Position numbers and translations under genes: made by a program | Assembly (NCBI GenBank): GCA_009829735.1 | Contig: CM020619.1 | Coordinates: forward strand, 20,093,816-20,157,815 | DNA: 64,000 nucleotides | Source of the DNA: Pyropia yezoensis | Taxonomy: Eukaryota > Rhodophyta > Bangiophyceae > Bangiales > Bangiaceae | Reading direction: 5' to 3' | Shown: piece by piece, positions 22,917-62,149 of the stretch | Layout: each line of letters starts with the position of its first letter | Position numbering within the stretch: the first letter of the stretch is position 1 | The notes under the pieces: generated by a model | Database searches by the model: none | What the model saw: the letters and a program-made list of their open reading frames with translations, nothing else | What the model was told of the DNA's origin: nothing

Positions 22917-23279
22917 TGTAGCAATATGGTTGGCCGTATTGTAACCCTAATACTAGGGGGGCTACTTCTAACCCTTAACTTTCAATTTGATAGTTCGTAC
23001 TGGTCCCGGTATCTATAAGTTACGTATGACCAGAGGGACTTGCATCTTGGGGTGGAGGGTAGTTAGTAGTGTCTCCGAGGGTTTATAACGAGGGGGCCGG
23101 CGGCGAATCCACCGCCAGCCAAGGTAGAACAACAAACCCCTCCCATTTGGGCTCCCATCTTGGTCCCGTGGCTTGCGCTCCAAGGACAGCAACCTTGGCC
23201 TCCCGGTGACGTTGGTGCCGATCCCCCTTGGTGAGTGTTCCCTGAGAGTGGACGTGCGACGGATTCCTATTGTGCTACA
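22917..23279 (+). repeat. Element 1 5' LTR
   Basis: 363 bp, TGTAGCAATATGG...TTGTGCTACA. A TATA-like TTTATAA lies at 23082-23088, about 200 bases from the LTR end, and is the best promoter candidate for the gag-pol transcript. Confidence 0.93.
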
Positions 23280-23300
23280 TTGGTGGAGCAGCAGGGGACG
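23280..23300 (+). promoter_or_regulatory. Element 1 primer-binding site
   Basis: TTGGTGGAGCAGCAGGGGAC starts directly after the LTR; TGG pairs with the CCA end of a tRNA. The same site, with minor changes, follows the LTRs of elements 2 and 3 (GGTGGAG(C/T)AGCA), so all three seem to use the same primer tRNA, which I cannot identify. Confidence 0.7.
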
Positions 23301-23504
23301 GGTTTCCGTCACCCTTGTGGTGACGCCGTTTTCGGCCCTGGCACACGGATAGGGATCCGGTCCTTTTCTTGTACTCGTGGTGTTGCGACCTGATCGATTG
23401 TGTTGAGCTTTTACCTGTGACTGTGATCTACTGTTACTCCCCCCAATCGACCCCCTCGCTCTCTTATTCGTGGTGATTGTTACGTCAGTTGACTGATTGT
23501 GACT

Positions 23505-25688
23505 ATGTCTACCCAAGAGACGGGGAACGTTCAAGATGACGGATCGGCGTCGACGCCGACCCCGGAGGTGACTACGGGAACCGGGATCGGGAACCCGATC
23601 GACAACATTGAGACGCCAATGCTTTCCGGTGCCGGATCGACGTTTGGCACGGCTCGGACGGCAGGAGGCGGGGGCCCGCCTCAACTGTCACCGACCGACC
23701 TCACTCCGCCGCCTCCTTCACCAGGGGATTCCCTGATGGCATCATTGGCCCGCATCGAGGCCCGGTTTTCCGGGCTCGACGCCCGTCAAGATCGGACGGA
23801 GGACGCAATGGCAGTGTTGATGTCAACACGCCACACGACGGGACCCCGTCGTGTTCCTCCCACACCGGTACGGTTCGAACCGGCCGGACTACTTTCGGAG
23901 TCCACCAGGGTTAACCCCGGTGTTGCTACTCCCGGACAACCCCCGGACACAATGGGGTATGGATCCGACTCGTCGGCAGAGTTGGAACGGAGTCACACGG
24001 AGCGATACGCTCGGAGCACCCGAAGCGGACTCCGCGGACACGACCCGGCGGATACTTACGCCGGGGGGGAGTCGGTTATTGGGGGAGGGGGTACCCACTC
24101 ACAGTATCCCCACGACGAAGGAGGCCAGGCAACTCGGGCTCCCGAGGCGCCGACGCCTGAAGTACAATCTTCAGTGGTGGAAGCTATGACCGCGCAGGTA
24201 ACTGCGAGCCTACTGAAGCGGATGGAGTCCGATGAGCTCGCTCATGAACTGGCTAAGCGACTGGATATCCAGGACGCTGACACGGAGATCGTCAACGAGG
24301 TCTTCCGGTCGGTTCTTACTCCGGAACGTTATCGTTTGGAGGACCGCTCTACCACCGTATCGGAATCGATGCGTAATACGTCGCATCGAGCGATTCGCTC
24401 TATGCAGACCCTTATGAAGGGAGTCCCTATGTTCGGGGGCCCCAACGGACGTCCGTTGGCAGTCATTGGCTTCTTGACTAGCTTCAAGGCAGCCGCGGAC
24501 AAGGCGCTCGTCAACGAGGGGCTGGCCCTGGAGATCCTCCCGTTCTTTGTTGATGAACGGGTGCGAGGCATTCTTCGCCAGGCATCCCCGATGCCGGGAA
24601 TGAGGGTCGCGGCCACCCCCATGGATTACCGTGGGATATTGAAGGAGCTGCTGAGCAGTTACCTCAGTGAGGACAAGTGCGAGGACCACTATCGGGCCCT
24701 TCGCACTGCCACCGCCCAGTCCTGGGAGGATGAGGAGATGTTTGGACGCCGGATCCAAGAGCTCGACTACGAGCTGGGGAAGCTCCTCGGTGAAGGGGAG
24801 CTACGGGCCATCCTGTTCGCAGGAGTATCCATCTACGTGCGGATATCCGCACGGGGCGCCAACACGGCACGGACGAACTTCAGTCGACTGATGCATATTT
24901 GCAAGTCCCTAGGGGACGCCTACCGGGTTCTACACCCGGAGTGTGCCTTGGCCCTGAATCCCAAGGGTGAGGGAGGCAAGCCCAGTCTTACCCCGGTACC
25001 GAGGCAAGAGAAGATGGAACGTAAGGCCGCACCAGTACTGGTGGCGACCGAACATACCCCTTCGGGTGAGGATGAGCCTCTAGTCGACCAACAGGGCCAC
25101 CTGTTGCTACCGGCGACGCCGGTGATTGATGAACATGGTACGGTAGCGTACATCGCCCCGGCTGGAACCCAGTTCCAGGTCAACGAAGGAGCGGGACGTC
25201 GCGTCCCGTACGTACGGACTACGGGGTACTCCCCGGTGACGGGTAACCCTCACCAACCCTTGCCAACATGGGCGGTGCGCACGGAGGCACCTCCGCAGAT
25301 TGCGGGCCGACCCAACCGGTTGGGGGAGTCCATGTTCCGGTTGACCCAAGGACCCAAGGCCTACCAGGGAGCAGGCACTCGGACTCCCGAGGGAGGCAAC
25401 CGCAGCTACGGGGCTACCCCGATGCGAACTCAGGGGGGGACCGGCACGTCCGGATGTATGTTGTGTGCTGATCCCCAACACTGGGTGTCTTCCTGCCCAC
25501 TCATCCCCGAGGAGTCTCGGCGGGCAGCGGCGCAACGCAAGGCATCCACAGGGGGGCATCTCGCCAGAGCACCCGGACCCGCACCGGGTAGGCAGCCAGC
25601 CCCAGGCGGAGTACTGGCCGTCGAGGAGGCACCTCCTCAGCCGGATGTCCCGGCGGACAGCACTCTACCAAGGGCGGGAAACGAGTAA
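23505..25688 (+). CDS. gag: Element 1 Gag polyprotein
   Basis: 727 residues from ATG 23505 (an upstream in-frame GTG adds only two codons). The first ~210 residues are Ser/Thr/Pro/Gly-rich and probably disordered. The capsid-like helical core follows (about residues 300-480; includes MFGGPNGRPLAVIGFLTSFK and AQSWEDEEMFGRRIQELDYE). Near residue 651 is one retroviral zinc knuckle, CMLCADPQHWVSSC (C-x2-C-x4-H-x4-C), for nucleic-acid binding. The frame is intact. The pol ATG lies 8 bases downstream in another frame, so pol probably depends on reinitiation rather than a fused ORF. Confidence 0.9.
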   Translation: MSTQETGNVQDDGSASTPTPEVTTGTGIGNPIDNIETPMLSGAGSTFGTARTAGGGGPPQLSPTDLTPPPPSPGDSLMASLARIEARFSGLDARQDRTEDAMAVLMSTRHTTGPRRVPPTPVRFEPAGLLSESTRVNPGVATPGQPPDTMGYGSDSSAELERSHTERYARSTRSGLRGHDPADTYAGGESVIGGGGTHSQYPHDEGGQATRAPEAPTPEVQSSVVEAMTAQVTASLLKRMESDELAHELAKRLDIQDADTEIVNEVFRSVLTPERYRLEDRSTTVSESMRNTSHRAIRSMQTLMKGVPMFGGPNGRPLAVIGFLTSFKAAADKALVNEGLALEILPFFVDERVRGILRQASPMPGMRVAATPMDYRGILKELLSSYLSEDKCEDHYRALRTATAQSWEDEEMFGRRIQELDYELGKLLGEGELRAILFAGVSIYVRISARGANTARTNFSRLMHICKSLGDAYRVLHPECALALNPKGEGGKPSLTPVPRQEKMERKAAPVLVATEHTPSGEDEPLVDQQGHLLLPATPVIDEHGTVAYIAPAGTQFQVNEGAGRRVPYVRTTGYSPVTGNPHQPLPTWAVRTEAPPQIAGRPNRLGESMFRLTQGPKAYQGAGTRTPEGGNRSYGATPMRTQGGTGTSGCMLCADPQHWVSSCPLIPEESRRAAAQRKASTGGHLARAPGPAPGRQPAPGGVLAVEEAPPQPDVPADSTLPRAGNE

Positions 25689-25696
25689 GAGGAAGG

Positions 25697-28600
25697 ATGA
25701 CCGGGGGGCGCTGGGGTAACCCAAGCAAGCCACCCCGGAGTACCGCGGGGAAGGCCCCACGGAGAGCGCGGTTGAGCCGACGCCGCATCAACCCCCGGGT
25801 ACACCTTCCGGCCCCGACGACACGGCGTCAGGGGATTGATGACCAACCTCCAAGGTTGGGGGGAGAGGACGGGATGCCCCGTCACGTTGAACCAGACAAG
25901 GGCCCTGTTCAGGATGCCCGAGCTACACCGGATATCGGTGTAGGCCACGTACTGTTCACCTTGGAGAACTTCAAGGTATCAGCTACACTGGGGGTTGACC
26001 CCCAGTCGACACGATCGTACTACCCGGTACTGGATACAGGGGCTGGACCCAACCTTATCCGGAAGGACACCCTCCCGGACAAGTGGCTTCCGCGAGTCAG
26101 AGTGACTCGGGGACCCACCATCAAGGACGCGAATGGTCGTCTCATTCGTACGACCGCAGCGATGTCGCTGCGGGTTACCATCGGGGAACTGACTACGGAA
26201 GTTGACTTCCTGGTATGTGAGACCCTATCGGTGCCCTGCATACTGGGATGCACCTTCAGCAACGTTCACGTTGATGCAATCCGGCCAGGCCGGAGGACCG
26301 TCGAGCTTCAAGAAGCCGACGGGACGAAGCGAGGACATACGGCTATCGTCAGGGACCTGACGCTACAAGGGAGCCACGTTAACGTGGCTGAGGTGTACGC
26401 AAGCGTCGAGCCGAAGACACTTCGGTTGGCCAAGCGAACCCGCTTTGAGCCGGTGTCGGAGACAGTCCTCCCAGTTAACTGTGACCTCGCAGGCATCTGC
26501 AGAGTCCAGTCCAACCTGCGGACGTACAAGCGCCATGGGTTGACCATGGCCAACGGTCTCATAGACCTCCCAGCAGGAGGGTCGTCCCTCCTAGTGATGG
26601 CGAACTATCGCCGTAAGGCAGTCACCCTCCCGGAGGGAACTATCCTCGGGATTGCCGAGCTCTACGAAGGAGATATCCTTACCCCTGACAAGGAAGGTCA
26701 AGTGGAACCACTTGAGGTGCTGGCGGTCGCCGAGACCACCGAGCGACAGCAACCCGATGACGGGAAGCCTAGTCGACCATCACTACCGGCGGATATTCCG
26801 CCGAAGGACCAAGAAGCATTGAAGGCCCTGGCCGAGGCTGACCTCGACCACCTTCCCCCTTCGGTAGCCGAAGGGGTACGACGGATGCTAAGAAAGCATG
26901 ACGTCATGTGGACAGGCGGGGCCTTGGGTACCATTGGGGCAACCCAACATCGTATTGACCTGGTACCAGGCGCACGCCCCGCCCGGTCACAACCGCACCG
27001 AGCGGGACCTATGCAACGAGAGATCGTTGATGGAGAAGTGAAGAGGATGAGCGAAGCGAAGGTGATACGACCTTCGATGTCGGAATGGGGTGCCCCAGTC
27101 GTTATCGTACCAAAGAAGGATCAAACCCCTCGGTTTTGCATCGACTATCGACGCCTCAACTTGGTTACCAAGAAGGACTCATACCCTTTACCAAGGATGG
27201 ATGAATGCATCGACTCCCTGGGGGAAGCTACGGTGTTTACCACCATCGACTGCAATGCCGGATACTGGCAGATCCCGGTGGCGGACGAGGATATCCCCAA
27301 GACGGCATTCGTCTGTCACAGTGGAGTGTACGAGTTCCTAAGGATGCCCTTCGGATTGTCCAACGCCCCCGCTACATTCCAGCGGGCTATCGACATTATA
27401 CTGTCGGGGGTGAAGTGGCGTAACTGCCTAGTGTACCTCGATGACGTCATCGTCTTCTCGCGTAACATGGATGACCATGTGCAACATGTTGACGAGGTAC
27501 TCACCCTCTTGAGGAACGCCGGGGTAACCCTGCGTCTGAAGAAGTGCGCCTTCTTCCAACAGACGGTCGAGTATCTGGGCCACCAGATAACCCCTGGTAA
27601 ACTAGGGGTACTAGAAGCCAATACCCGGGCACTCCGGGATGCCCGGTTCCCTAACACCCAGACGCAGCTCAAGAGCTTCCTGGGAATGTGCAATGTATAC
27701 CGACGGTTCGTCAAGGACTTCGCTCGGATAGCTAAACCGTTAACGGTTCTTACGAGCAGTACCTTACCCAAGGTACTCCAACCCCCTTCGCCTAGCGGAG
27801 AGGAGGCATTCGAGTCGCTGAAGCGAGCCCTACTATCCCCACCCGTCCTTGCGTTACCGCATAGACGGGGGACCTTCGTCATCGATGTCGATGCGTGTGA
27901 TACACAAGTGGGATGCACCCTGTTACAGGGAGAGACGTTGATCGGTACCGATAACGTTATCCCGGACCTACGTCCGGTAGGGTACTTCAGCCGGACACTC
28001 AACCCGGCTGAACGTAACTATAGTGCCACCGAGCGTGAATGCCTCGGAGTTATATGGGCAGTGCAACTGCTCCGTCCATACCTGGAGGGCTCCAGGTTCA
28101 TCGTGAGGTCCGACCACGAACCCCTACGATGGCTCCTCAACCTTGGTGAAAAGGATTCCGATAGCCACGGGAGGCTAGCCCGATGGAGGCTGAAGATGGC
28201 CGAGCACGACTACCGTACCGTGTATAAGGCTGGGTCAACCCACCATCTCGGAGACGCATTGTCTCGACTCGACACCCCGAGCGGGGATACCCGCCCGGTG
28301 GACGAAGACATCCCGGTGGTACCGGTCTGCATGGTCGGTAACGCTACCCAAGGTATGGTTGACCATACCATGGCGCACCGAGCATGCCCACTGACCCTCG
28401 CGGACTTCCGCGAGGCACAAGCCAATGACGACGACTGTAGACGCCATCGCGCTAACCTCCTGGCCGGTACGGCCGGCATCTTCTCCGAGAATGAAGACGG
28501 ACTCATATACCGGCGGGCACCCGCCGATGGACGACATCAAGTCGTGGTTCCCGTGTCCTTACGGCAAGCCATCATGGAACGAGAACACGAGAACCCCACA

Positions 28601-29326
28601 GCCGGACACCCGGGGGGTTCACGTATGTTCGCAGCAATGCGAAGGTTCTTCTACTGGCCAGCAATGGCCGTCGACGTGGTCGACCACGTAAGGGGATGCC
28701 ACCCCTGTGCACGTAACCGCATGAGTCTACATAGGCAGGCGTCTGCCATGAAGCTATTCCCACCTGATGGGCCCAACGAGCAAGTCGCTATCGACATACT
28801 CGGGCCACTTCCGGTAACGGAAGAAGGGAACAGGTACATCCTGGTCATGTCGGACCGCTTCACCAAGCTGTCACGAGCGGCAGCCATCCCGAATGATACG
28901 GCATACACGATCATGAACGCAGTGGTTGACCACTGGATCAGTGCATACGGAGTCATGAAGCAACTCCTCTCCGACAACGGAGCAAACCTTACGTCGGCAT
29001 TCTGCACTAAGGTCCTGGGCATGTTCGGCATCGAACCACGTCGGGCATCCGACTACCACCCGCAAACCAACGGACAGGTGGAGCGGTTCAACCGCACCAT
29101 CGTGAAGATGCTACAGTGCTACGTGGCCGAGCACACGAACACTTGGGACAGGCTTCTGTCCGTACTCACCCTGGCATATAATGCCAGGCCACATCGGAGC
29201 ACAAACATCGCTCCGCTGGAGTGGGTCATGCCCTTAGGCGTCGGTAACCTGACGCTGCCGCCAGGCAGGTGCACTCGGTATGATACACCGAAAGGCCGAC
29301 CGGCCGAACGCATCCACCTAGCTTAG
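25697..29326 (+). CDS. pol: Element 1 Pol polyprotein (protease, RT, RNase H, integrase core)
   Basis: 1209 codons to TAG 29324-29326. Aspartic protease: DTGAGPNLIRKD from residue 113. Reverse transcriptase: FCIDYRRLN, DCNAGYWQIP, FGLSNAPATFQRAID and the catalytic VYLDDVIVFS (residue ~579). RNase H: VIDVDACDTQVGC (~730) and ERECLGVIWAVQLLRPYLEG. Integrase: the HHCC zinc module (HENPTAGHPGG...CHPCARN, to ~1005) and D,D,E core with AIDILGPLP (~1031), LLSDNGANLTS (~1092) and PQTNGQVERFNR (E ~1131). All catalytic residues are present. The GPY/F and chromodomain parts that normally complete the integrase lie in frame directly behind the TAG. Confidence 0.93.
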   Translation: MTGGRWGNPSKPPRSTAGKAPRRARLSRRRINPRVHLPAPTTRRQGIDDQPPRLGGEDGMPRHVEPDKGPVQDARATPDIGVGHVLFTLENFKVSATLGVDPQSTRSYYPVLDTGAGPNLIRKDTLPDKWLPRVRVTRGPTIKDANGRLIRTTAAMSLRVTIGELTTEVDFLVCETLSVPCILGCTFSNVHVDAIRPGRRTVELQEADGTKRGHTAIVRDLTLQGSHVNVAEVYASVEPKTLRLAKRTRFEPVSETVLPVNCDLAGICRVQSNLRTYKRHGLTMANGLIDLPAGGSSLLVMANYRRKAVTLPEGTILGIAELYEGDILTPDKEGQVEPLEVLAVAETTERQQPDDGKPSRPSLPADIPPKDQEALKALAEADLDHLPPSVAEGVRRMLRKHDVMWTGGALGTIGATQHRIDLVPGARPARSQPHRAGPMQREIVDGEVKRMSEAKVIRPSMSEWGAPVVIVPKKDQTPRFCIDYRRLNLVTKKDSYPLPRMDECIDSLGEATVFTTIDCNAGYWQIPVADEDIPKTAFVCHSGVYEFLRMPFGLSNAPATFQRAIDIILSGVKWRNCLVYLDDVIVFSRNMDDHVQHVDEVLTLLRNAGVTLRLKKCAFFQQTVEYLGHQITPGKLGVLEANTRALRDARFPNTQTQLKSFLGMCNVYRRFVKDFARIAKPLTVLTSSTLPKVLQPPSPSGEEAFESLKRALLSPPVLALPHRRGTFVIDVDACDTQVGCTLLQGETLIGTDNVIPDLRPVGYFSRTLNPAERNYSATERECLGVIWAVQLLRPYLEGSRFIVRSDHEPLRWLLNLGEKDSDSHGRLARWRLKMAEHDYRTVYKAGSTHHLGDALSRLDTPSGDTRPVDEDIPVVPVCMVGNATQGMVDHTMAHRACPLTLADFREAQANDDDCRRHRANLLAGTAGIFSENEDGLIYRRAPADGRHQVVVPVSLRQAIMEREHENPTAGHPGGSRMFAAMRRFFYWPAMAVDVVDHVRGCHPCARNRMSLHRQASAMKLFPPDGPNEQVAIDILGPLPVTEEGNRYILVMSDRFTKLSRAAAIPNDTAYTIMNAVVDHWISAYGVMKQLLSDNGANLTSAFCTKVLGMFGIEPRRASDYHPQTNGQVERFNRTIVKMLQCYVAEHTNTWDRLLSVLTLAYNARPHRSTNIAPLEWVMPLGVGNLTLPPGRCTRYDTPKGRPAERIHLA

Positions 29327-29863
29327 TTGGCCAAGCTATCGTGGATGATTCCTAAGCTCAAGGGTGCCCTTGACAGGACACAACTTCGATACAAGAAGAA
29401 CTTCGACGCCCGACTACGGGTGCGCAACGCAACCCTGGTAACAGGGGACTGGGTCTATATCAGACACCAGAAGTTCCGAGGGAACAAGCTTATGCAACCG
29501 GTCAAGGGACCGTACCAGATCTTACACAGAGATGATCACTCTGTCATCCTGCACTCCGATACGGAGATACAACGCATCAACCTCAATGATGTGACACCTG
29601 CTCCGAAGCCGGAACAGCCTCAGCCGGTACCGGCTGGGTTGCTACATGAAGCTCTTACAACCCACCGGTCAGATGACCCGGTGGGACCGGATGGGATTCC
29701 ACACCAAGTAGAGAGCGTGGTCGGACACACCGACCCGGACCTACCAGGACCCTGGTACGTCAAGGTTATGTGGGTCGGATGCGACGCACCCACCTGGGAA
29801 CAGGCGGCGAATATACCCCGCCAACTCCTCATGCCTTACATGAGGCGACGACGCCTACTGTAA
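29327..29863 (+). CDS. Element 1 integrase C-terminus: GPY/F module and chromodomain, behind in-frame TAG
   Basis: 178 in-frame codons continue directly after the pol TAG and end in TAA 29861-29863. The first third contains the integrase GPY/F motif (KLMQPVKGPYQIL). The last 60 residues resemble a chromodomain (HQVESVVGHTD, then GPWYVKVMWVGCDAPTWEQA), a histone-reading module that targets chromoviral integrases to chromatin. There is no ATG at the start, so expression would require stop-codon readthrough, an internal start, or an ancestor without the stop. Element 2 encodes the same region and also has a stop within three codons of this position. Confidence 0.75.
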   Translation: MAKLSWMIPKLKGALDRTQLRYKKNFDARLRVRNATLVTGDWVYIRHQKFRGNKLMQPVKGPYQILHRDDHSVILHSDTEIQRINLNDVTPAPKPEQPQPVPAGLLHEALTTHRSDDPVGPDGIPHQVESVVGHTDPDLPGPWYVKVMWVGCDAPTWEQAANIPRQLLMPYMRRRRLL

Positions 29864-29940
29864 CAACCCAACCGACACCGACTTCGGCTGTTTGGGGGTG
29901 AGGCTTATACCTACTAAGTAGGGTGTCACATGGTTACGGC

Positions 29941-30060
29941 AGACTTAGGCTTCTAAGTCAAAGCAGACTTAGGTTTCAAAGTCAAATCAGACTTAGGTTT
30001 CTAAGTCAAGTCAGACTTAGGTTTCTAAGTCCAACCAAGCTTAGGTAACTAAGTAAACCA
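29941..30060 (+). repeat. 24-bp tandem repeat behind pol of element 1
   Basis: Five units start at 29941, 29965, 29989, 30013 and 30037, of the type AGACTTAGGTTTCTAAGTCA. Each contains the dyad ACTTAG...CTAAGT and can form a small hairpin. A degenerate version lies at 52120-52180 in element 2, so it belongs to the element; it sits between the ends of gag-pol and of the antisense frame. Confidence 0.7.
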
Positions 30061-30364
30061 GAACCTTAATAAGTTGACTTAAAGGTAAAGGCTAACTCCG
30101 ATAATATCGAAGTAACTAGGGGGCCTACACGGGAGGAGGACCTCCCCAAGCCAAGGCACAAAGTGAGGGAGGATGACCTCCCCAAGCAGGAACCAACCGG
30201 AAGAAGTTGGACGGGAGGCAAGGCACCACTGAGCCGGAAGGGGTACTCCCCAGGGCAGCAAACAGCGGCAAGCAATGCCCCCGTAGGGGATGAGTTTATA
30301 CTCACTACGACCCGGCTACCAGAAGGGTCACCGGGTCCCTCTCCCTCACAAACAGTAGCACTCC

Positions 30365-32827
30365 TCAGTGGGTAGACCCACTGCCCGAGGGAGGCCACTC
30401 ACGCGTAAGCGCGTAGACCTCCGTGCTCCACCGGTCGGCAATATCACGACGGTCAATCACCCGAGTTACCTCGGTGCATAGCTGGACGAGGGTGCTGCGG
30501 CCAGCCTCCACGTCCTCCAGAGCTTTCTGGAGGCGGTCAAGCACGCCACCAAAGCAACGCGCTGACCCAACCAGCGCAGCACCTGGGGGGATATCCCCCC
30601 AGCTAACAGAGAGACCCCCCCGCATTGCGCGGGTAACAAGGGCGTCAACGCCCTCATACCAGAGACGGGGACCCCCGTCAGGCATGACAGGGGCGGGAGG
30701 TGACACTGGCGCAGCCAGAGGAGCCACAGGAGCCGACACGGCTACCACCGGAGCCGGTGGCACCTGATACGAGGCCCGGTAGGACCCTACCGAAGGGGCT
30801 CCACCGTAACCACGGCGGTACTCCGCCCGACGACGGGACACCTCACGCTCCCCACCCGCAGAGCCCCACTCTCGGGGACGACGGCCAACCGCCGCCGGTA
30901 TCGGGTTACCGAACCACGGGGCAAGGACCTGAAGAGGGTCATGGATAACCATGGGAATACCCAGGTCAGCAACAGCCTCGGTGGACGCCCATCCATGGCA
31001 ACTGGGCTCACCCGGATGAGTACGCCGGATACGCAACGAGTGACGAGGCAAGGGGGTAGCCCCAGCCTGCGGGTCCCGGTACGGGGGAAGGGCCAACACC
31101 CCAGCCCAGTTCACGGCATCGTGAACAGCCAGCAGGGCCTCGAACTCCCGGGCCAACCCGGTCTTGGCGGCTATCATGTCCACGCCCAATTGCGCGATGT
31201 GCCGACGGACACCCGTCGGAAGATGAAACAGACGACCCTGCCGGCGGACGGACAGCAAGAAGGAGGAAGCCTGCCCGAGGGTAACCTCAAGGGTGAAGGT
31301 ACCCTGCAACGGGTGGACCGGTCGGGAGGACAACACACTCCCGAAGTATCGGAGACAGGAACCGGTGTCAAACCGGAAAGCAGGGGCGGGTTCCCACCCC
31401 TCCTGCCATAGCGGCGGGCGCACGGGAGTGTATACAGGCGCACGACCGTTGCCGGTCTGCAACGCACACGTTATATCCGTGCGGAACGCATCCGCCATGA
31501 CACCATGGTTACGTCGCCAGCTTGACGCCGACTTCAACCCCGCCATAGGCGGGTAGGGAGCCGTCAACGACAGATACGGGGCTACCCCCGGGTGATAGTC
31601 AAAGTCGGGATACCGACCGGTACTGCCCACCGTCTCCCCAAACGCAACCGGCTCCGCCGCCGACGCAATCCCCCGAGCACTAGCCGGGTAGTCAATCTCC
31701 CGCGGCAACGCGGGGGCAATCAGGTCGCATACCCCGAAGTTGGGGTCGAGGTAGACCTCACCCCGTCCCACCCGAGTGCGCCAGAGCTGCGCATGCCGGT
31801 CGTCCGGCTGACTCAGGATCCAATGGTGTTCCACTCGCACCGCGTTCGGCTGGTTGACCAGCCGCACCAACTCCTGCTCCCAACTCGGGTCCACCTTGAC
31901 ACGCCGGGAGGACTCTCCACGGGGATGGGGCAGGTGGAAGTCCACCCGCATCCGCCCATCGGATTCCATTGCCTCTTGCACAGACAGGCCTCGAACCCGA
32001 GCCACCAAGTCGGACATCGACATGGCGGGTTGACCCGCCGCCACGGCGACGCCGCCACCCAACGGGGCAACCCGGGCAGGACCAGGAAGAATCGGGGGCG
32101 CCGGGGGACGCACCACCGGCAGAGGGGCCGGCGCCGGAGGCGCGCGCGGCCGAGGAGGAAGAAGAAGGGCGGGCGCCCGCCCGGAGTAGCTCCCGGTGTC
32201 AACGGCCATGGGGGAAGCAGCGTCTTGACCGTTCGACGCCCGCGGCACCGCAGGTAGGGTACCGGCGCCTCCCCCACCCGTCGACGTCGCCCCCGCCTCG
32301 GAAGGGGGAGGCACTTGGACAGCCTCAGGAGCCTGAGCACCAGCCGTGCGGGCACCCGCACCGTCTTAACCGGCCACCCCGGGGGTCGCGCCACCACCAC
32401 CACCACCCGCGTCAACATCGGGGTCGCGTTAAGGATGCACCGTCCGGACCCCCGGACCACCTTGCCCAGCCGGAGTCGGCTGCGGATCGCCACTTCCGCC
32501 GCACGGCGGACCATCTTGGGGTAGCTGCGGCGAGCCGGCACCGGCACCAGGCTCCATCCGGGCAGCCGGCAGAGAGGGGGTAGAAGCCGCCACGCGCGGT
32601 TGACCGCCGGGTTGACCGCCGGGTTGACCTCCGACCGACGGCACCGTCGTGCCGCTGCACACGGACGACAGTCCTCCGGCCGACAGACGGACGGACACCG
32701 CAGGCTCGTCGTCTTCAGACGAGGTCGCCCCGTAACGCGCAGCGTCAGGACCGACAGGCGCGTCGTCCTCCATCTCCTCCCCGATCAGGAGGTCCTCCTC
32801 CTCCCCAAGCACCTGGGGATAGGACAT
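30365..32827 (-). CDS. Element 1 antisense ORF (aORF), two internal stops
   Basis: A frame of 820 codons opposite to gag-pol runs from ATG 32825-32827 to TGA 30365-30367, broken only by two TAA (about 32429 and 32367); the 649 codons from 32314 onward are open. The N-terminus is acidic (EEEDLLIGEEMEDD), followed by Pro/Ala/Gly-rich sequence and a ~400-residue ordered-looking region starting at MSMSDLVARVRG, with segments such as DPSWEQELVRLVNQPNAVRV, AFRFDTGS and WSTEVYALTREWPPS. I recognise no family. Element 2 encodes the same protein with mostly third-position differences, and at one stop it has CAA instead of TAA. It lies downstream of pol, where land-plant Tat-lineage Gypsy elements carry unrelated antisense genes. 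Confidence 0.7.
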
Positions 32828-32912
32828 GATAACGGGTGGCACCTCCCCCGCGCCCACAAGCCGTCGACGGCTACGATTCGGTACGGTGGGACAACCGGGA
32901 CGAACCAGGGAA

Positions 32913-32937
32913 GCGCGGGCACCCGCGCTTATGACCA
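32913..32937 (-). promoter_or_regulatory. Candidate aORF promoter element in element 1 (palindrome)
   Basis: Minus strand reads GGTCATAAGCGCGGGTGCCCGCGCTT about 90 bases before the aORF ATG. The 16-base palindrome GCGCGGGTGCCCGCGC and the preceding ATAAG are conserved in element 2 (49495-49516), where the box reads TTATAAG. Confidence 0.35.
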
Positions 32938-33395
32938 CAAACGGCCACGAGAAGCGCCGCAGGCACGCGGGTCGACCCGCGCACCACGGGGCTACGAACG
33001 CGCTCCACCCAGGAACCTGGGCGGGACGGGGCCACACCCACACACGGGGTAAGCAAGGGGGGTCACCCCCAACCGCCCCCACTCAACGCGGGCAGCCCCC
33101 GCCCCTACTCACTCGTCCACACGAGAGGGGCCCCCCCACCACCAGGCACCTGGTGGCGGATCCGCTTGCACCACCCCTCGGAAAGGGGGGTCGTGAACAG
33201 AACCCGCATCGGGAATTTAACGGTCCGGAAAACGGATCGTGTGTGTACCACACAAAGGGGGGCACCCCCCTCAGACAACCTCGAAAAGGGGTGTCTGTCG
33301 CGACGGGGCGCAAAGCCCCACCCGACTGGTAAACGGTCACGCGACCCACTTACATTCGGTAACCCGAATGCAACTCGACCCGAGGACGGGCCGAA

Positions 33396-33410
33396 TCTAA
33401 GGGGGGGATA
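33396..33410 (+). other. Element 1 polypurine tract
   Basis: AAGGGGGGGATA abuts the 3' LTR, the expected primer for plus-strand DNA synthesis. Confidence 0.75.
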
Positions 33411-33773
33411 TGTAGCAATATGGTTGGCCGTATTGTAACCCTAATACTAGGGGGGCTACTTCTAACCCTTAACTTTCAATTTGATAGTTCGTACTGGTCC
33501 CGGTATCTATAAGCTACGTATGACCAGAGGGACTTGCATCTTGGGGTGGAGGGTAGTTAGTAGTGTCTCCGAGGGTTTATAACGAGGGGGCCGGCGGCGA
33601 ATCCACCGCCAGCCAAGGTAGAACAACAAACCCCTCCCATTTGGGCTCCCATCTTGGTCCCGTGGCTTGCGCTCCAAGGACAGCAACCTTGGCCTCCCGG
33701 TGACGTTGGTGCCGATCCCCCTTGGTGAGTGTTCCCTGAGAGTGGACGTGCGACGGATTCCTATTGTGCTACA
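33411..33773 (+). repeat. Element 1 3' LTR
   Basis: 363 bp, identical to the 5' LTR except for one base that I could find; followed by the CCTGG duplication. TATA-like TTTATAA at 33576-33582. Confidence 0.93.
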
Positions 33774-34371: not shown

Positions 34372-34593
34372 GGGGGATAAGGGGAGGGACAGCGGGGCTT
34401 GGCCCTGCGTCCCCGTCCCGACCAAGAAACTGTTGGACCACACACCATCCTCTTGTTTGTCAGTGGGGGGTTTGCCCCACAACAGGGACAGAGTGTGTGC
34501 GACTTGCACTTCTTCCGGTTCCCCCGACACGGGAGGCAGCCCTTGTACACCACCCCAACTTGGGTGCCGTGTGTGTAAGTGGTTTTTGCCACA
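34372..34593 (+). repeat. Element 3 5' LTR, truncated
   Basis: Matches the last ~222 bases of the 470-bp LTR at 39608-40077 and ends TTTTTGCCACA. It is followed at 34594 by TTTGGTGGAGCAGCATGGG, the primer-binding site. Confidence 0.8.
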
Positions 34594-34712
34594 TTTGGTG
34601 GAGCAGCATGGGACAGAGGGAAACTTTAACTCCGGGTGCACCCGGGTGTAGGGGGCCCTCTGTCTCAGAGGAACGGTGGACTTGGACCGTGTCATACGGA
34701 TCGTCAGCCAAC

Positions 34713-39454: not shown

Positions 39455-39595
39455 CCAAGTGGGCAAGCTTGAGGAGAGGGGCGGTCAACGCGACCGCCTC
39501 CACACCCGCGTTACGTACTCGAGGGGGGACAGCAAGTCGCGCCCCCAACGCCGAGACGTGCGTTTACGCAGGGCCGACCGGGTCGGTCGGAACTC

Positions 39596-39607
39596 AGGAG
39601 GGGGGAG
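39596..39607 (+). other. Element 3 polypurine tract
   Basis: AGGAGGGGGGAG directly precedes the TGTGGCAG start of the 3' LTR. Confidence 0.65.
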
Positions 39608-48659: not shown

Positions 48660-49021
48660 TGTAGCACAATAGGTATCCGCTGCACGTCGACTCTCAGGTA
48701 ACACTCACCAAAGGGGATCGGCACCAACGTCACCGGGAGGCCAAGGTTGCTGTCCTTGGAGCGCAAGCCACGGGACCAAGATGGGAGCCCAAATGGGGGG
48801 GGTTTGCTGTTCTACCATGGCCGGCGGGGGATTCGCCGCCGGCCCCCTCGTTATAAACCCGCGAAGACACTACTAACTACCCTCCACCCCAAGATGCAAG
48901 TCCCTCTGGTCATACGTAGCTTATAGATACCGTGACCAGTACGGACTCCCAAATTGAAAGTAAAGGGTTACACGTAGCCCCCCTAATAAAGGGTCACAAT
49001 ACGGTCAACCATATTGCTACA
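48660..49021 (-). repeat. Element 2 3' LTR
   Basis: Plus strand reads TGTAGCACAATAGG...CATATTGCTACA. It is followed by TATCCCCCCCTTAG (49022-49035), the complement of the polypurine tract. Confidence 0.9.
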
Positions 49022-49494
49022 TATCCCCCCCTTAGATTCGGCCCGTCCTCGGGTCGAGTTGCATTCGGGTTTCCGAATGTAAGTGGGTCGCGTGATTGTT
49101 TACCAGTCGGGTGGGGCTTTGCGCCCTGTCGCGACAGACACCCCTTTTCGAGGTCGTCTGAGGGGGGTGCCCCCCTTTGTGTGGTACACACACGATCCGT
49201 TTTCCGGACCGTTGAATTCCCGATGCGGGTGTTTGTTCACGACCCCCCTTTCCGGGGGGTGGTGCAAGCGGATCCGCCACCAGGCGTCTGGAGGTAGAGG
49301 GGCCCCTCTTGCGGGTCGATTGAGTGGGGGGCGGGGGCTGCCCGCGTTGCGTGGGGGCGGTTGGGGGTGACCCCCCTTGATTACCCCGTGTGGGGGGGCG
49401 TGGCCCCGATCCAGGTGCCTGGGTGGAGCGTCCTCGTAGCTCGGCTGGCGCGGGTCGTCCCGCGCTGCCGCACCGCTCGTGCTGAGCTGTGTGG

Positions 49495-49516
49495 TTATAA
49501 GCGCGGGTGCCCGCGC
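49495..49516 (+). promoter_or_regulatory. Candidate promoter of the antisense ORF in element 2
   Basis: TTATAAG (49495-49501) leads into the palindrome GCGCGGGTGCCCGCGC (49501-49516), about 107 bases before the ATG at 49608. The palindrome and ATAAG are conserved in element 1, although the surrounding leader has diverged. Confidence 0.4.
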
Positions 49517-49607
49517 TTCCCTGGCTCGTCCGCGAGCGTTCCTTGTACCGGGTCGAGCCGGCTGCGGCTTTTTTGGCACGGGGCGCCCCTGCTACCCCGG
49601 CTCCACC

Positions 49608-51812
49608 ATGTCGGACCCCCAGGTACCCGGGGGCGAGGACGACCTCCTGATTGAGGAGGAGGAGGAGGTGATGCAGGATGACGTTCCCGTCTCTGCCACC
49701 GCTGCCGAGTGCTTCTTGGCGAGCTCGTCGGAGGACGAAGGCGACCGGGTTACCGTCCGTGTAGCCCCGGAAGGCGCGCCGTGCGGGTTGTCGTCCGTGT
49801 GCAGCGGCACGACGGTTCCGTCGGATGGCGGTCAACCGCGTGTAGCGGCTGCCTCTACTCCTACTCCTCCGGCGAACCGGATGGCTCCTGTCGCCGGTGC
49901 CGGCGCGGCTCTACCTCAAGACGGCGCAGCCGGTGTGTCGGACGGTTGTGGCGGCACCCCGGCCGGGACGGCGGGTCAAGACGGTGCGGGTGCCCGCCCG
50001 GTTGGTGGTGTGTCCATGGGGGCGGGTAACGGGTCTACCTTCTCCGTCCCCGTGGTGCCCACGTCGGGCCTGGGTGGCGGCGATGCTCTGACCGCGGTGC
50101 CGCGGGCGACAGTAGGTCAAGACGTGTCTTCCCCGATGGCGGTGGACTCCGGGAGCTACTCCGGGCGGGCGCCCACCCTTCCTCTTCCTCCTCGGCCCCG
50201 TGCGCCTACGGCACCGGCCCATCTGCCGGTGGGGCTTCCCCCGGCGCCCCCGATTCTTCCTGGACCCGCCCGGGTTGCCCCGTTGTGTGGCGGCGTCGCC
50301 TTGGCGGCAGGTCAACCCGCCATGTCGATGTCCGACTTGGTGGCTCGGGTTCGAGGCATGACTGTGCAGGAATCGATCGACTCCGCTGGGCGGATGCGGG
50401 TGGACTTCCAGCAGCCGCGTCTCCCTGGAGAGACCTCCCGGCGCGTCAAGGTGGACCCGAGTTGGGAGCGGGAGTTGGTGCGGCTGGTCAACCAGCCGAA
50501 CGCGGTCCGCGTGGAACATCATTGGATCCTGAGCCAGCCGGACGACCGGCATGCGCAGCTCTGGCGCACCCGGATGGGGCGGGGTGAGGTCTACCTTGAC
50601 TCCGCCTTCGGCATCTGCGACTTGGTTGCCCCCGCGTTTCCGCGGGCGGTTGACTACCCGGCTAGTGCTCGAAGGGTTGCGTCGGCGGCGGCGCCGGTGG
50701 CGTTTTGGGAGACGGTGGGCGACACCGGCCGGTATCCCGGGTTTGAGTACTTCCCGGGCTATCCCCGTATCTGACGTTGACGGCTCCTGACCCGCCCATG
50801 GAGGGGCTGAAGTCGGCGTCGAGCTGGCGACGCAACCATGGTGTCATGGCGGATGCGTTCCGCACCGATATAACCTGTGCGTTGCAGACCGGTAACGGTC
50901 GCGCGCCGGTGTACACTCCCGTGCGCCCGCCTCTGTGGCAGGAGGGGTGGGAGCCCGCCCCTGCTTTCCGGTTTGACACCGGCTCCTTTCTCCGATACTT
51001 CGGTAGTGCGTTGGCCTCCCGGCCTGTCCACCCGCTGCAGGGGACCTTCACTCTGGAGGTTACCCTCGGGCAGGCTTCCTCCTTCTTGCTGTCCGTCCGC
51101 CGGCAGGGGTTCCTGTTTCATCTTCCGACGGGTGTCCGTCGGCATATCGGGCAGGTGGGCGTAGACATGATTTCTGCCAAGACCGGGTTGGCCCGGGAGT
51201 TCGAGGCCCTCCTGGCCGTTCACGATGCCGTGAACTGGGCTGCGGTAATGACCCTTCCCCCGTACCGGGATCCGCATGCTGGGGCTGCCCCCTTGCCTCG
51301 TCACTCGTTGCGCATCCGGCGTACTCAGCCGGGTGAGCCCAGTTGCCGTGGGTCGGCGTCCACCGATGCTGTCCCTGACCTGGGTATTCCCATGGTTATC
51401 CATGACCCTCTTCAGGTCCTCGCCCCGTGGATCGGTTACCCGATACTGGTGGGGGTTGGCCGTCGTCCCCGAGAGTAAGACTCTACGGGTGGGGAGGGTG
51501 AGGTGTCCCGTCGCCGGGCGGAGTCCCGCCAGGTGTACGGTGGAGCCCCTTCAGTGAGGTCCTACCGGGCCTCGTATCAGGCGCCACCGGCTCCGGTGGT
51601 AGCCGTGTCGGCTCCTGTGGCCCCTCTGGCTGCGCCAGTGTCACCTTCCGCCCCTGTCATGCGTGACGGGGGTCCCCGTCGATGGTATGAGGGCGTTGAC
51701 GCCCCTCGTTGCCCGCGAGCTGCGGAAGGGTCCCTCTGTGAGCTGGAAGAGCATGAAGGTGTACGCGTTTACGCGTGAGTGGCCTCCTTCGGGCAGCGGG
51801 TCTACCCACTGA
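49608..51812 (+). pseudogene. Element 2 antisense ORF, frameshifted
   Basis: ATG 49608 has a strong context (CCACCATGT) and opens MSDPQVPGGEDDLLIEEEEE, the counterpart of the element 1 start. It is open to TGA 50772-50774, where a frameshift relative to element 1 occurs (after GRYPGFEYFPG). The frame resumes at about 50777 (PPMEGLKSASSWRRNHGVMA) to TAA 51476-51478, again at 51503-51778, and the homologous end (GSGSTH, TGA) is at 51810-51812. Where element 1 has its second TAA, element 2 has CAA (GTAGQDGAGA). Over DPSWE to WRTR nearly all nucleotide differences from element 1 are third-position and silent. No known domain. Confidence 0.7.
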
Positions 51813-52254
51813 GGAGTGTTGTTGTTGTGAGGAAGAGGGACCCGGTGACCCTTATTGTGGCCGGGTAGTAGTGAGTATAAACTCATCCCCCGCTGGGGCG
51901 TTTGCATGATCCCGATGGCTGCCTGTGGGGAGTACCCCGTCTGCCATAGCCGTGCCTAGCCTTGGTTTTTCTCGCGCCGCCAACCAATCCTGGTTGCTTA
52001 GTACTCATAAAGGTCAACCATCCTCGGTCAGACACTTGCCCCAGGTTTACCTTGGTGTAGGTCTCAGGTTACTTTGATATTTTCGAATTTAATCATCTCC
52101 TTCAAGTATAAACTTGTTAAAGTCAGTCGCGTACTTAGTTTGTCTAAGTCCGCTCCAACTTAGTGGACCTAAGTCTTACCTAATCCATATGACACCCGAC
52201 TTAATAGGTATAAGCCTCACCCCCCAACAGCCGAAGTCGGTGTCGGTTGGGTTG

Positions 52255-55200
52255 TTACAGTAGGCGTCGTCGCCTCATGTAAGGCATGAGAAGTTGGCGG
52301 GGTATATTTGCCGCCTGTTCCCAGGTGGGTGAGTCGTATCCGACACACATCACCTTGACGTACCAGGGTCCTGGTAGGTCTGGGTCGGTGTGTCCGACCA
52401 CGTGGTCTACTTTGTATGGAATTCCATCCGGCCCCACCGGGTCATCTGACCGGTGGGTTGTAAGAGCTTCATGTAGCAACCCAGCCGGTACTGGCTGAGG
52501 CTGTTTCGGCTTCGGAGCAGGTGTCACATCGTTGAGATTGATGCGTTGTATCTCCGTATCGGAGTGGAGGCTTACAGAGTGATCATCTCTGTAGGATCTG
52601 GTACGGTCCATTGACCGGTTGCATAAGCTTGTTCCCTCGGAACCTTTGGTGTCTGATGTTGACCCAGTCACCTGTTACCAGGGTCGCGTTGCATACCTGT
52701 AGTCGGGCGTCGAAGTTCTTCTTGTATCGAAGTTGTGTACGGTCAAGGGCACCCTTGAGCTTAGGGATCATCCACGATAGCTTGGCCAACCAAGCTTAGT
52801 GGATCCGTTCGGCCGGTCGGCCCTTCGGTATGTCATACCGAGTGCACCTGCCCGGTGGCAGCGTCAGATTACCGACGCCCATTGGCATGACCCATTCCAG
52901 TGGAGCAATGTTGGTACTCCGGCGGGGCCTGGCATTGTATGCCAGGGTCAATACGGACAGAAGCCTGTCCCACGTGTTCGTGTGTTCCGCCACATAGCAT
53001 TGGAGCATATTGACGATGGTGCGGTCTAACCGCTCCACCTGCTCGTTGAAGTGCGGGTGTTAGTCGGATGCCCGACGTGGTTCGATACCGAACATGCCCA
53101 TGACCTTAGTGCAGAATGCTGACGTATGGTTTGCTCCGTTGTCGAAGAGGAGTTGCTTCATTACTCCGTAAGCACTGATTCAGTGGTCAACCACTGCGTT
53201 CATGATCGTGTAGGCCGTGTCGTTTGGGATCGCTACTGCTCGTGACAGCTTGGTAAAGCGGTCCGACATGACGAGGATGTACCTTTTCCCTTCTTCCGCT
53301 ACCGGAAGCGGCCCGAGTATGTCGGTAGCGACTTGGTCGTCGGGCTCATCGGGGGGGAACAGTTTCATAGCGGATGCCCGCCTATGAAGACTCATACGAT
53401 TCCGTGCGCCCGGATGGCATCCTCGCACGTGGTCGATTACGTCGACGGCCATTGCTGGCCAGTAGAAGAACCTCCGCATTGCTGCGAACATGCGCGACCC
53501 CCCCGGGTGTCCAGCTGTGGGGTTCTCGTGTTCTCGTTCCATGACGGCTTGTCGGAAGGACACGGGGACCACGACCTGATGCCGTCCATCGGCGGGTGCC
53601 CGCCGGTATATGAGTCCGTCCTCATTTCCGGAGAAGATGCCGGCCGTGCCGGCCAAGAGGTTTTCGCGATGGCGTTTACATTCATCGTCATTGGCCTGTG
53701 CCTCGCGGAAGTCCGCGAGAGTTAATGGGCACGCAAGATGTGCCATGGTATGGTCAACCATACCTTGGGTGGCGTTACCCACCATGCAAACCGGTACGAC
53801 TGGGATGTCCTCGTCCACCTGTCGGGTATCCCCGCTCGGTGTATCGAGTCGCGACAGCGCGTCTCCCAGATGATGGGTAGAGCCGGCCTTATATATGGTC
53901 CGGTAGTCGTGCTCGGCCATCTTCAGCCTCCATCGGGCTAGCCGACCGTGGCTGTCTGGATCCTTGTCACGAAGGTTGAGAAGCCATCGTAAAGGTTCGT
54001 GGTCGGACCTCACGATGAACCTGGATCCTTCCAGGTATGGCCGGAGCAGTTGCACTGCCCATATGACTCCGAGGCACTCGCGCTCGGTGGCACTATAGTT
54101 ACGCTCAGCCGGATTGAGTGTCCGGGTGAAGTACCCCACCGGATGTAGGTCCGGGGTAGCATTATCGGTACCGATCATTGCCTCTCCCTGTAACAGGGTG
54201 CATCCCACTTGGGTATCGCAGGCATCGACGTCGATGACGAAGGTCCCGCGTCTATGCGGCAACGCAAGCACGGGTGGGGCTAGCAGAGCTTGCTTGAGTA
54301 GCTCGAATGCCTCTCCCTCGCTAGGCGAGGGAGGTTGGAGTGCCTTTTGCAAGGCGCTGCTCGTCAGATCCGTTAACGGTTTGGCTATACGAGCGAAGTC
54401 CTTGACGAATCGTCGGTATACGTTGCACATCCCCAGGAAGCTCTTCAGCTGTGTATGGGTGGTTGGGTATCGCGCATTCCGGAGTGCCCGGGTACTTGCT
54501 TCGAGCACTCCCAGTTTACCTGGTGTGATCTGGTGACCCTGATACTCGACGGTCTGCTGAAAGAAGGCGCACTTCTTGAGGCGCAGGGATACCCCGGCGT
54601 TCCGCAAGAGGGTGAGTACCTCGTCCACATGTTGTACATGGTCATCCATGTTACGCGAGATGACGATGACATCGTCCGGGTACACCAGGCAGTTACGCCA
54701 CTTCACTCCCGACAGTGTAATGTTGATGGCGCGCTGGAATGTGGCAGGGGCGTTGGAAAAGCCGAAGGGCATCCTTAGGAACTCGTACACTCCACTGTGA
54801 CAGACGAACGCCGTCTTGGGGATATCCTCTTCTGCAACTGGGATCTTCTAGTACCCGGCATTGCAGTCGATAGTGGTAAACACTGTGGCTTCCCCCAGGG
54901 AGTCGATACACTCGTCCATCCTTGGTAAAGGGTATAAGTCTTTCTTGGTAACCAAGTTGAGGCGTCGATAATCGATGCAGAACCGAGGGGTTTGATCCTT
55001 CTTCGGTACGATAACGATTGGGGCGCCCCACTCCGACATCGAAGGTCGGATCACCTTAGCTTCGCTCATCCTCTTCAATTCTCCATCAACGATCTCTCGT
55101 TGCATAGGCCCCGCGCGATGCGGTTGAGACCGCGCTGGTCGTGCACCTGGTGCCAGGTCTATACGGTGTTGGGTTGCCCCAATGGTGCCCAGAGCCCCGC

Positions 55201-56420
55201 CGGTCCACATGACGTCATGCTTTCTTAGCATCCGTCGTACCCCTTCGGCTACCGGAGGTGGAAGATGGCCGAGGTCAGCCTCGGCCAGTGCCTTCAAGGC
55301 TTCTTGGTCCGTTGGCGGAATGTCCGCCGGGGCTTTTGATGGGTTAGGTTTCCCGTCATCGGGTTCCTGCAGCTCGGTGGTCTCGGTGACCGCCAGTACC
55401 TCAAGTGGTTCCACTTGACCTTCCTTGTCAGCGGAAGGATGTCTCCTTCGTAGAGCTCGGCGATCACGAGGATAGTTCCTTTCGGAAGGGTGACCGCCTT
55501 ACAGCGATAGTTCGCCATCACGAGCAGTGATGACCCCCCCGCTGGGAGGTCTACGATACCGTTGGCCAGGGTCAACCCATGGCGCTTGTAGGTTCGTAGG
55601 TTAGACTGGACTCTGCAGATGCCTGCGAGGTCACAGTTAACCGGGAGGACGGTCTCCGATAACGGCTCAAAGCGGGTCCGCTTGGCCAGCCGCAGTGTCT
55701 GTGGTTCTACGCTTGCGTATACCTCAGCCACGTTAACGTGGCTCCCTTGTAGCGTCAGGTCCCTGACGATAGCTGTCTGTCCTCTCTTCGGCCCGTCGGC
55801 CTCTTGCAGCTCGACGGTCCTCCGGCCCGGCCGGATTGCATCAACGTGAACGTTGATGAAGGTGCACCCCTGTATGCAGGGCACAGATAGAGTCTCACAC
55901 ACCAGGAAGTCGACTTCCGTGGTGAGCTCCCCAATGGTGACCTGCAGCGACATCGCTGCGGTCGTACGAATAAGACGACCATTCGCAACCTTGATCGTGG
56001 GTCCCCGAGTGACCCTGACTCGCGGGAGCCGCTTGTCCGAAAGGGTATCCTTCCGGGTCAGGTTCGGTCCAGCAACTGTGTCCAGTACAGGGTCATACGA
56101 TCGGGTCGACTGGGGATTAACCCCCAGTGTGGCTCATACCTTGAAGTTCTCCAAGGTGAACAGTTCGTGGCCTACACCGATATCCGGCGTAGCTCGGGCA
56201 TCCTGGACAGGGCCCTTGTCTGGTTCAACGTGACGGGGCTTCCCGTCCTCTCCCCCCAACCTTGGAGGTTTGTCATCAATCCCCTGACGCCGTGTCGTCG
56301 GGGCCGGACGGTGTACCCGGGGATTGATGCGGTGTCGGCTCAACCGCGCTCTCCGTGGGGCTCTCCTCGCGGCAGTCCGGGGTGGCATGCCAGGGTTACC
56401 CCAGCGACCCCGTGTCGTCC
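52255..56420 (-). pseudogene. pol: Element 2 pol with integrase C-terminus, multiply broken
   Basis: Collinear with element 1 pol. The protease frame (about 56388-55294) has a stop before the catalytic region and lacks a clean DTGAG motif. A frameshift near 55414 leads into RT (FCIDYRRLN; the stretch DCNAGY is followed by a stop), and YLDD is altered to YPDD in VYPDDVIVIS at about 54685. RNase H and the integrase zinc module follow to 53180. The integrase core is cut by stops near 53180 and 53060. TAA at 52796-52798 precedes the GPY/F region, and a further frameshift near 52620 precedes the chromodomain-like end (GPWYVKVMCVGYDSPTWEQA). The copy cannot supply a working Pol. Confidence 0.85.
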
Positions 56421-56426
56421 TTCCTC

Positions 56427-58604: not shown

Positions 58605-58804
58605 AGTCACAATTAGTCAACCGACGTAACAGTCACCACGAATAAGAGAGCGAGGGGGTAGTTGGGGGAGAGTAACCGTAGATCGCAGTCAAACGCAACC
58701 ACTCAAAACAATCGACCAGATCGCAGCACCACGAGTACAAGAAAAGGACCGGATCCCTATCCGTGTGCCAGGGCCGAAGACGGTGTCACCACAAGGGTGA
58801 CGGA

Positions 58805-58829
58805 AGCCCGTCCCCTGCTACTCCACCAA
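58805..58829 (-). promoter_or_regulatory. Element 2 primer-binding site
   Basis: Minus strand TTGGTGGAGTAGCAGGGGAC directly follows the 5' LTR; one base differs from element 1. Confidence 0.65.
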
Positions 58830-59191
58830 TGTAGCACAATAGGTATCCGCTGCACGTCGACTCTCAGGGAACGCTCACCAAGGGGGATCGGCACCAACGT
58901 CACCGGGAGGCCAAGGTTGCTGTCCTTGGAGCGCAAGCCACGGGACCAAGATGGGAGCCCAAACGGGGGGGGTTTGTTGTTCTACCATGGCCGGCGGGGG
59001 ATTCGCCGCCGGCCCCCTCGTTATAAACCCGCGAAGACACTACTAACTACCCTCCACCCCAAGATGCAAGTCCCTCTGGTCATACGTAACTTATAGATAC
59101 CGTGACCAGTACGGACTCCCAAATTGAAAGTTAAGGGTTAGAAGTAGTCCCCCTATATTAGGGTCACAATACGGTCATCCATATTGCTACA
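58830..59191 (-). repeat. Element 2 5' LTR
   Basis: 362 bp, TGTAGCACAATAGG...CATATTGCTACA on the plus strand; it differs from the left LTR at several sites (for example CAGGGAACGCTCACC versus CAGGTAACACTCACC). Confidence 0.9.
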
Positions 59192-62140: not shown

Positions 62141-62149
62141 CCAGATACT

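Follow-up and report, generated by a model that had tools for sequence, protein, structure and literature searches.

The window, by which we mean the whole stretch of 64,000 nucleotides analyzed, has a G+C content of 64.6% and is rich in long frames. It contains a 10.9-kb Ty3/Gypsy-type LTR retrotransposon (element 1, 22917-33773) of Pyropia yezoensis, a nori-type red alga, which shows the TG...CA LTRs, the target duplication and the order protease-RT-RNaseH-integrase of that class, and an inverted, older copy (element 2). The features under study are listed here, with the N and C types of the antisense gene defined further below.

22917..23279, plus strand: 5' LTR of element 1, TGTAGC...GCTACA, with a CCTGG target duplication just before it
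23499..25688, plus strand: gag frame, 729 aa, with a CCHC-like knuckle seen by eye
25697..29326, plus strand: pol frame with aspartic protease-like, RT, RNase H and integrase domains (Pfam) and a premature stop at its end
29327..29863, plus strand: remainder of pol, a GPY/chromodomain-like tail of 178 aa, placed by alignment to the C-termini of pol relatives
29939..30062, no strand assigned: array of 24-bp units with the dyad CTTAG-N4-CTAAG, 5.2 copies by TRF
30365..32827, minus strand: antisense gene, an 820-codon frame that is interrupted at codons 133 and 154 in element 1
30368..30874, minus strand: basic linker and C-terminal part of the antisense gene
30875..32029, minus strand: conserved basic core
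32160..32220, minus strand: junction common to the N- and C-module exchanges, at PMAVDxGSYSGR, located by 60-nt sliding identity
32648..32827, minus strand: acidic N-terminus and start of the N-module, residues 1-60 of an intact copy
32828..33410, minus strand: leader from the 3' LTR to the antisense ATG, presumed by its position alone to be the promoter region
33411..33773, plus strand: 3' LTR of element 1, after a purine tract and before CCTGG
48660..59195, minus strand: element 2, LTRs 95.9% identical
49608..51812, plus strand: antisense gene of element 2, type N2C1, frameshifted and damaged

The family of element 1 is a very abundant, highly amplified Ty3/Gypsy-type element of bangialean red algae. 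Repeats are reported to make up 48% of the P. yezoensis genome, with LTR retrotransposons predominant (PMC7423979), and the genome that we searched comprises 107.5 Mb in 11 contigs, including three of 43.6, 34.3 and 29.4 Mb. The LTRs of element 1 are 363 bp each and equal at 362 of 363 bases, so that by this single difference the element is young, yet pol and the antisense gene are each interrupted by premature stop codons, and the element may have moved with help from other copies. The premature stop in pol falls at the integrase/tail junction, where 34 of 35 genomic places (duplicates included) have a sense codon. No Pfam family reached its cut-off in the gag frame. The preliminary description had called these chromodomain elements; the 178-aa pol tail does align at 27-32% identity with the C-termini of pol relatives, among them several with PF00385, but the Pfam Chromo model did not reach an E value of 1 on this tail, and the assignment of element 1 to the chromoviruses is therefore plausible but weak.

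Several other features lie in the window. A different Gypsy element is present at 34372-40072, its pol 40% identical to that of element 1 and its pol frame split at about 38352, and fragments of a further Gypsy element (pol 42-45% identical) adjoin element 2 at 59196-63254. A G+C-rich repeat occupies 42337-44395, its copies spaced about 169 bp apart and 64-95% alike. Two other frames are a minus-strand frame of 751 aa at 3736-5991, with PAHGEPAHGAP-like repeats matched by DNA repeats of 15 and 24 bp, and a plus-strand frame of 328 aa at 18672-19658, whose C-terminal end resembles a RING-H2 finger by eye.

The antisense gene of element 1 sits after the pol tail, which ends at 29863, and before the 3' LTR, which starts at 33411, on the strand opposite to gag-pol. 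An antisense frame of about 800 codons had been described at this position in both elements: the position holds for both, with the gene of element 2 on the plus strand since that element is inverted, and element 1 has 820 codons from ATG to stop, but both copies are broken. The longest open piece in element 1 is 649 aa (30365-32314), and the gene of element 2 has both a frameshift (at about 50753-50759) and a premature stop (at about 51476-51478), with its match showing a gap at 51737-51749. Even element 1, with its nearly identical LTRs, lacks an intact antisense gene, as does element 2, and the element may therefore not require one in cis. Other genomic copies are open from the same ATG, with 815 aa in most copies of type N1C1 that we read, 789 aa in most of type N2C1, and 843 aa in the N1C2 copies L029 and L030. 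Because these copies read as one frame, we rejected as unneeded an intron spanning the two stops in the linker of element 1.

Copies with an intact frame, whose existence the preliminary description had left in question, were found in a survey of the genome with a 233-aa piece of element 2 as the query, in which the best 150 of 2195 first-look candidates were scored. In 147 of these 150 matches there is no stop inside the match, and the open frame is at least 789 aa in 104 and shorter than 500 aa in 21, counts that are biased toward well-kept copies since only the best candidates were scored. The gene is also linked to the element. We examined 50 loci picked by the antisense protein, including element 2 as L001. 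A pol tail was found at 43 of them, always on the opposite strand and 399-548 bp beyond the antisense match; the remaining seven (L003, L004, L012, L014 and L026-L028) have no pol tail within the flank. With its position between pol and the 3' LTR, its orientation opposite to gag-pol and a protein conserved across copies, the gene has the arrangement of an aORF-3R.

Two groups of loci are arranged in tandem. At G000:C2:9880067-9892399 (L051, L026-L028, L042), four antisense genes follow one another at an exact 3489-bp spacing in an array whose unit is an LTR plus the antisense gene, with pol beside the first unit only; L026-L028 and L042 are units of this one array. Three antisense matches at G000:C1:23857983, 23868736 and 23879489 (L014, L012 and L013) have an exact spacing of 10753 bp, which suggests whole elements in tandem, and at L012 and L014 an antisense-oriented LTR lies beside the gene, where pol would be expected.

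Codon analysis of 14 representative copies (91 pairs) demonstrated that this frame evolves as a protein. In the 45 C1-C2 pairs, omega is 0.24-0.33 at a dS of 0.66-0.93, rather than near 1, which bears out the earlier proposal of a real protein under purifying selection. Omega is 0.26-0.53 in the 36 C1-C1 pairs and, among the 10 C2-C2 pairs, 0.35-0.63 in seven and 1.08-1.41 in three very close pairs; these 3 of 91 pairs fit neutral decay after insertion. For the two copies in the window, 579 aligned codons give a dS of 0.223, a dN of 0.090 and an omega of 0.40. That proposal had been based on the stretch from DPSWE to WRTR, where about nine codon differences (seven silent, two replacements) had been counted; we count six, of which five are silent and one is a replacement. 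In all seven pairs subjected to trinucleotide-context-preserving shuffling, there are fewer amino-acid changes than in any of 1000 shuffles, for example 187 observed differences in one pair against a shuffle mean of 284 and a minimum of 253. In the three shuffled pairs that compare C1 with C2, third positions change most in each of six base classes (A, C, CpG-C, G, CpG-G and T), and in close shuffled pairs this excess fails for some classes (e.g., G in W1-L002).

The other five frames, analyzed in six pairs, have an omega of 0.90-1.87, apart from one pol-strand frame at 0.43-0.59. This frame shares its third positions with the antisense frame and is interrupted by 12-18 stops. A pol-strand frame as a real gene was rejected on this basis, with each such frame in the six pairs showing either an omega of at least 0.90 or the stops of a shadow frame. 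The codon pattern is that of a protein-coding gene transmitted via active copies, with neutral decay after insertion, and we conclude that the antisense frame is very probably a real protein-coding gene. That it has no protein function, being a chance long frame in G+C-rich DNA or kept by selection on the antisense RNA alone, could draw on the base composition and many long frames of the window and on a pol-strand frame of 369-372 aa that overlaps the N-terminal part in many copies, but the omega values and the context-preserving shuffles contradict a chance frame, which we therefore rejected, and the frame is kept at about 50% protein identity in a second species, so that we give this reading next to no credence.

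The encoded protein has distinct acidic and basic parts. In L033, a natural copy with an intact frame, the first 60 residues have a pI of 4.1 and a charge of -12.5, in agreement with the acidic N-terminus described before; Pro, Gly, Ala and Ser make up 63% of residues 61-265; residues 266-650 have a pI of 9.1; and the highest 19-residue hydropathy is 1.37, with no membrane-like segment. Two widely different N-terminal types, N1 and N2, have in common MS(Y/D)PQ, DLL near acidic residues, a Ser-acidic cluster and GLSSVCSGT, and the N-terminal end of one protein of Pyropia vietnamensis (P0007) is similar (EDDLLMEEEE). Conserved motifs of the core include VRVEHHW, GVCDL, SWRRNHG, RTDIT, ALQTGNG, RFDTG, FTLEVTLGQ and RRQGRLFHLP. 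No Pfam model reached its cut-off with the antisense protein (the best, DUF6214, had an E value of 0.014, below its cut-off), there was no match in NCBIfam or PHROGs, and the PDB gave nothing credible (one chain at an E value of 0.1).

Two protein searches, each of which scored only the 8000 candidates sharing most words, identified 13 relatives of the antisense protein. Seven are from P. vietnamensis (Bangiales), at 43-53% identity; two are close to copies in the P. yezoensis genome (91 and 95%), and four more are at 52-65%. In a tree of these proteins, the P. vietnamensis rows form one clade and C1 and C2 are sister clades in P. yezoensis, with support of 96/95 for C1 and C2 together and 100/99 for each alone; two further rows have long branches and an unsure placement. 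As expected for a gene of a eukaryote, no relative was found in the phage, IMG/VR and GTDB collections. A captured host gene is not supported, since no relative outside the antisense family was present among the proteins scored. Pol has 1135 relatives, and the 120 listed, most of them rows without a name, include no P. vietnamensis label; an attempt to pair antisense with pol models of that species through locus tags gave no link.

Comparison of copies shows that the antisense gene consists of two modules, of types N1 or N2 and C1 or C2, which are traded between element lineages. Sliding identity between element 1 and L054 is 90-98% to about 32160, then 55-90% to about 30300, and then 90-97% into pol. 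L055 shows 38-82% identity to element 1 upstream of about 32220, then 82-98% as far as 30300, 56-79% across the array region and at least 95% beyond it; against L013 it is 50-80% upstream of about 32220 (one bin unaligned) and then 82-100%; and against L056 there are no such blocks. By these blocks, the two modules meet at one junction near 32160-32220, with the N-module comprising part of the leader, the acidic end and the linker, and the C-module running from the core to a point some 60 bp beyond the stop codon. Such exchange is ordinarily caused by recombination between co-packaged RNAs.

Among 57 rows typed (L001 dropped), 31 are N1C1, 14 are N2C1 and 12 are N1C2, and none is N2C2. Without six re-fetched duplicates, the 51 rows are 28 N1C1, four of which are units of one array, 13 N2C1 and 10 N1C2. 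Comparison of 37 C1 with 12 C2 rows, with 5 duplicates included, gives a median dS of 0.774 in the core (median dN 0.189) and 0.848 in the C-terminal part (median dN 0.253), against 0.213 at the pol end and 0.343 in the pol tail, which indicates that the C types are older than the pol genes now carrying them. Within the C2 rows the order is reversed, with a median dS of 0.108 in the core and 0.214 at the pol end, so that C2 has moved onto different pol backgrounds.

Between pol and the 3' end of the antisense gene lies the dyad array, which in element 1 contains four exact dyads and one with a single mismatch. At one mismatch the window contains six dyad matches against 0.46 expected, the sixth at the pol junction. 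Genome-wide, the extended form ACTTAG-N4-CTAAGT occurs at 1238 sites, compared with 2 for a backward control, and mostly as pairs 24 bp apart among the sites listed; the array is rare outside the element. All of the 44 distinct intergenic regions examined contain dyads, with 1-5 in each and 157 in total, against an average of 0.04 in mononucleotide shuffles. In an older lineage (E2, L002 and L018), the arms are constant and the spacer is changed in sequence and to five bases. We looked for co-variation of the array with C type across C1 and C2 copies and did not find it: the array is the same in both, and thus does not follow C type.

With both strands folding and the arms constant while the spacer varies, both a protein site in DNA and an RNA hairpin are possible. 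The spacer change leans to a hairpin and the constant arms lean to recognition. That the array is an RNA hairpin which ends or processes convergent transcripts, and not a protein site, is a serious alternative that we hold at somewhat below even chances: as RNA, each strand of the array folds better than all 200 shuffles (z of -5.9 and -5.7), partly between units, and the spacer is variable, in sequence as well as in length (four or five bases), while the arms stay, but the arms are nearly invariant and no compensatory pairs were noted, a pattern equally compatible with a site that a protein recognizes.

Antisense genes in LTR elements are an already known kind, and a review calls their function unknown (PMC7264820). 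Our element resembles the Retand/Tat-type elements with TRP28 in having an antisense ORF between pol and the 3' LTR and tandem repeats in the same region, and in that recently active copies carry the gene (PMC11963269). It differs from them in that no TRP28 match is found, that it is present in a red alga and that its pol tail is chromodomain-like, Retand being reported from flowering plants only (PMC11963269). None of the 13 family members matches TRP28 (PF04195) at an E value of 1, so the earlier statement that there is no sequence relation to the Tat/Ogre antisense genes holds at the Pfam level. Maize Grande (gene23), rice RIRE2 and PvRetro13 also have an antisense gene between pol and the 3' LTR (PMC7264820); we compared them by description, and saw no shared Pfam family. 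The contrast with land plants drawn in the preliminary description was too sharp, since Boty of Botrytis, a Gypsy element of a fungus, has an antisense gene, brtn (PMC7264820; PMC8365987), a likeness again by description.

The best overall explanation, which we favor with moderate confidence, is that this is an accessory antisense gene with its own promoter whose product is a nuclear regulator of its own element. The gene would be transcribed from its own presumed promoter between the 3' LTR and the ATG, as the genomic RNA of the element has the wrong strand. The protein, with its acidic flexible N-terminus and basic core and no membrane segment, would then regulate the expression or chromatin of the element in the nucleus. 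Such a role seems reasonably probable by analogy: the antisense gene of Grande is described as having its own promoter and a nuclear product (PMC7264820), and an acidic flexible end with a basic core is a layout that suits a nuclear regulator, although it is not proof of one; with no known domain, "nuclear" and "regulator" here draw on layout and analogy. As a conjecture that we hold only loosely, the protein may act at the dyad array, which would be its target; by acting there it might separate the two convergent transcription units or label the element as its own. Alternatively, the array might be the end of two convergent transcripts. A viral parallel is one of layout only. HBZ of HTLV-1 is an antisense regulator encoded near the 3' LTR, with acidic and basic parts; the antisense protein gave no bZIP match in the Pfam scans, unlike HBZ. 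HTLV antisense genes are also mentioned in the paper on Retand (PMC11963269).

A basic core would suit RNA binding as well, and no domain discriminates between these roles, so the product could instead be a particle or host-cytoplasm protein, such as a second structural, RNA-binding or transport protein. We consider this improbable, if the strongest of the competing functions, as there is no membrane-like segment for an envelope role and a protein made from a separate minus-strand RNA would not be co-produced with gag-pol. Not far behind it, and a special case of the nuclear regulator, is an anti-silencing factor like VANC, which would recognize the array and free its own family from host silencing. 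As in the VANDAL transposons, a separate protein accompanies a private tandem motif array in the non-coding DNA of the element, and the protein has conserved and variable parts (PMC5735166). VANDALs are DNA transposons of Arabidopsis in which the motifs change with the protein (PMC5735166), whereas here the array is identical between C1 and C2 copies, and the Pfam scans of the antisense protein gave no family of any kind above cut-off, VANC-type included; we hold this reading to be unlikely. Our element's likeness to VANC and to the plant antisense genes is one of layout, not descent. Still less likely is a self-limiting factor for copy number or superinfection, with the N and C types as a means of escape from mutual control comparable to phage immunity types: two old C types and two N types do occur in otherwise similar elements, but selection is overall purifying rather than diversifying, and old types may persist by chance recombination.

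Within the preferred reading of a nuclear regulator, a more specific and doubtful proposal is that gene and array form a self-recognition system, in which the basic core, by reading the array, would control or protect its own family and the N and C modules would be effector or specificity types. If true, this would be a counterpart in an LTR retrotransposon, and in a red alga, of VANC anti-silencing or of phage immunity regions. Our search of the literature by title and start of abstract found no description of an antisense gene in a red algal LTR element, nor of this protein family, the module exchange or the dyad array. What is new here, beside the known kind of antisense gene, is the exchange of N and C halves, C types older than the neighboring pol, and the dyad array. 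Proteins of P. vietnamensis filed as hypothetical can now be assigned to a family that a mobile element carries in P. yezoensis. The red algal system offers many intact copies, two separate modules with distinct types and a compact array, and if the protein acts on the array, the role of such antisense genes would be reduced to a simple assay.
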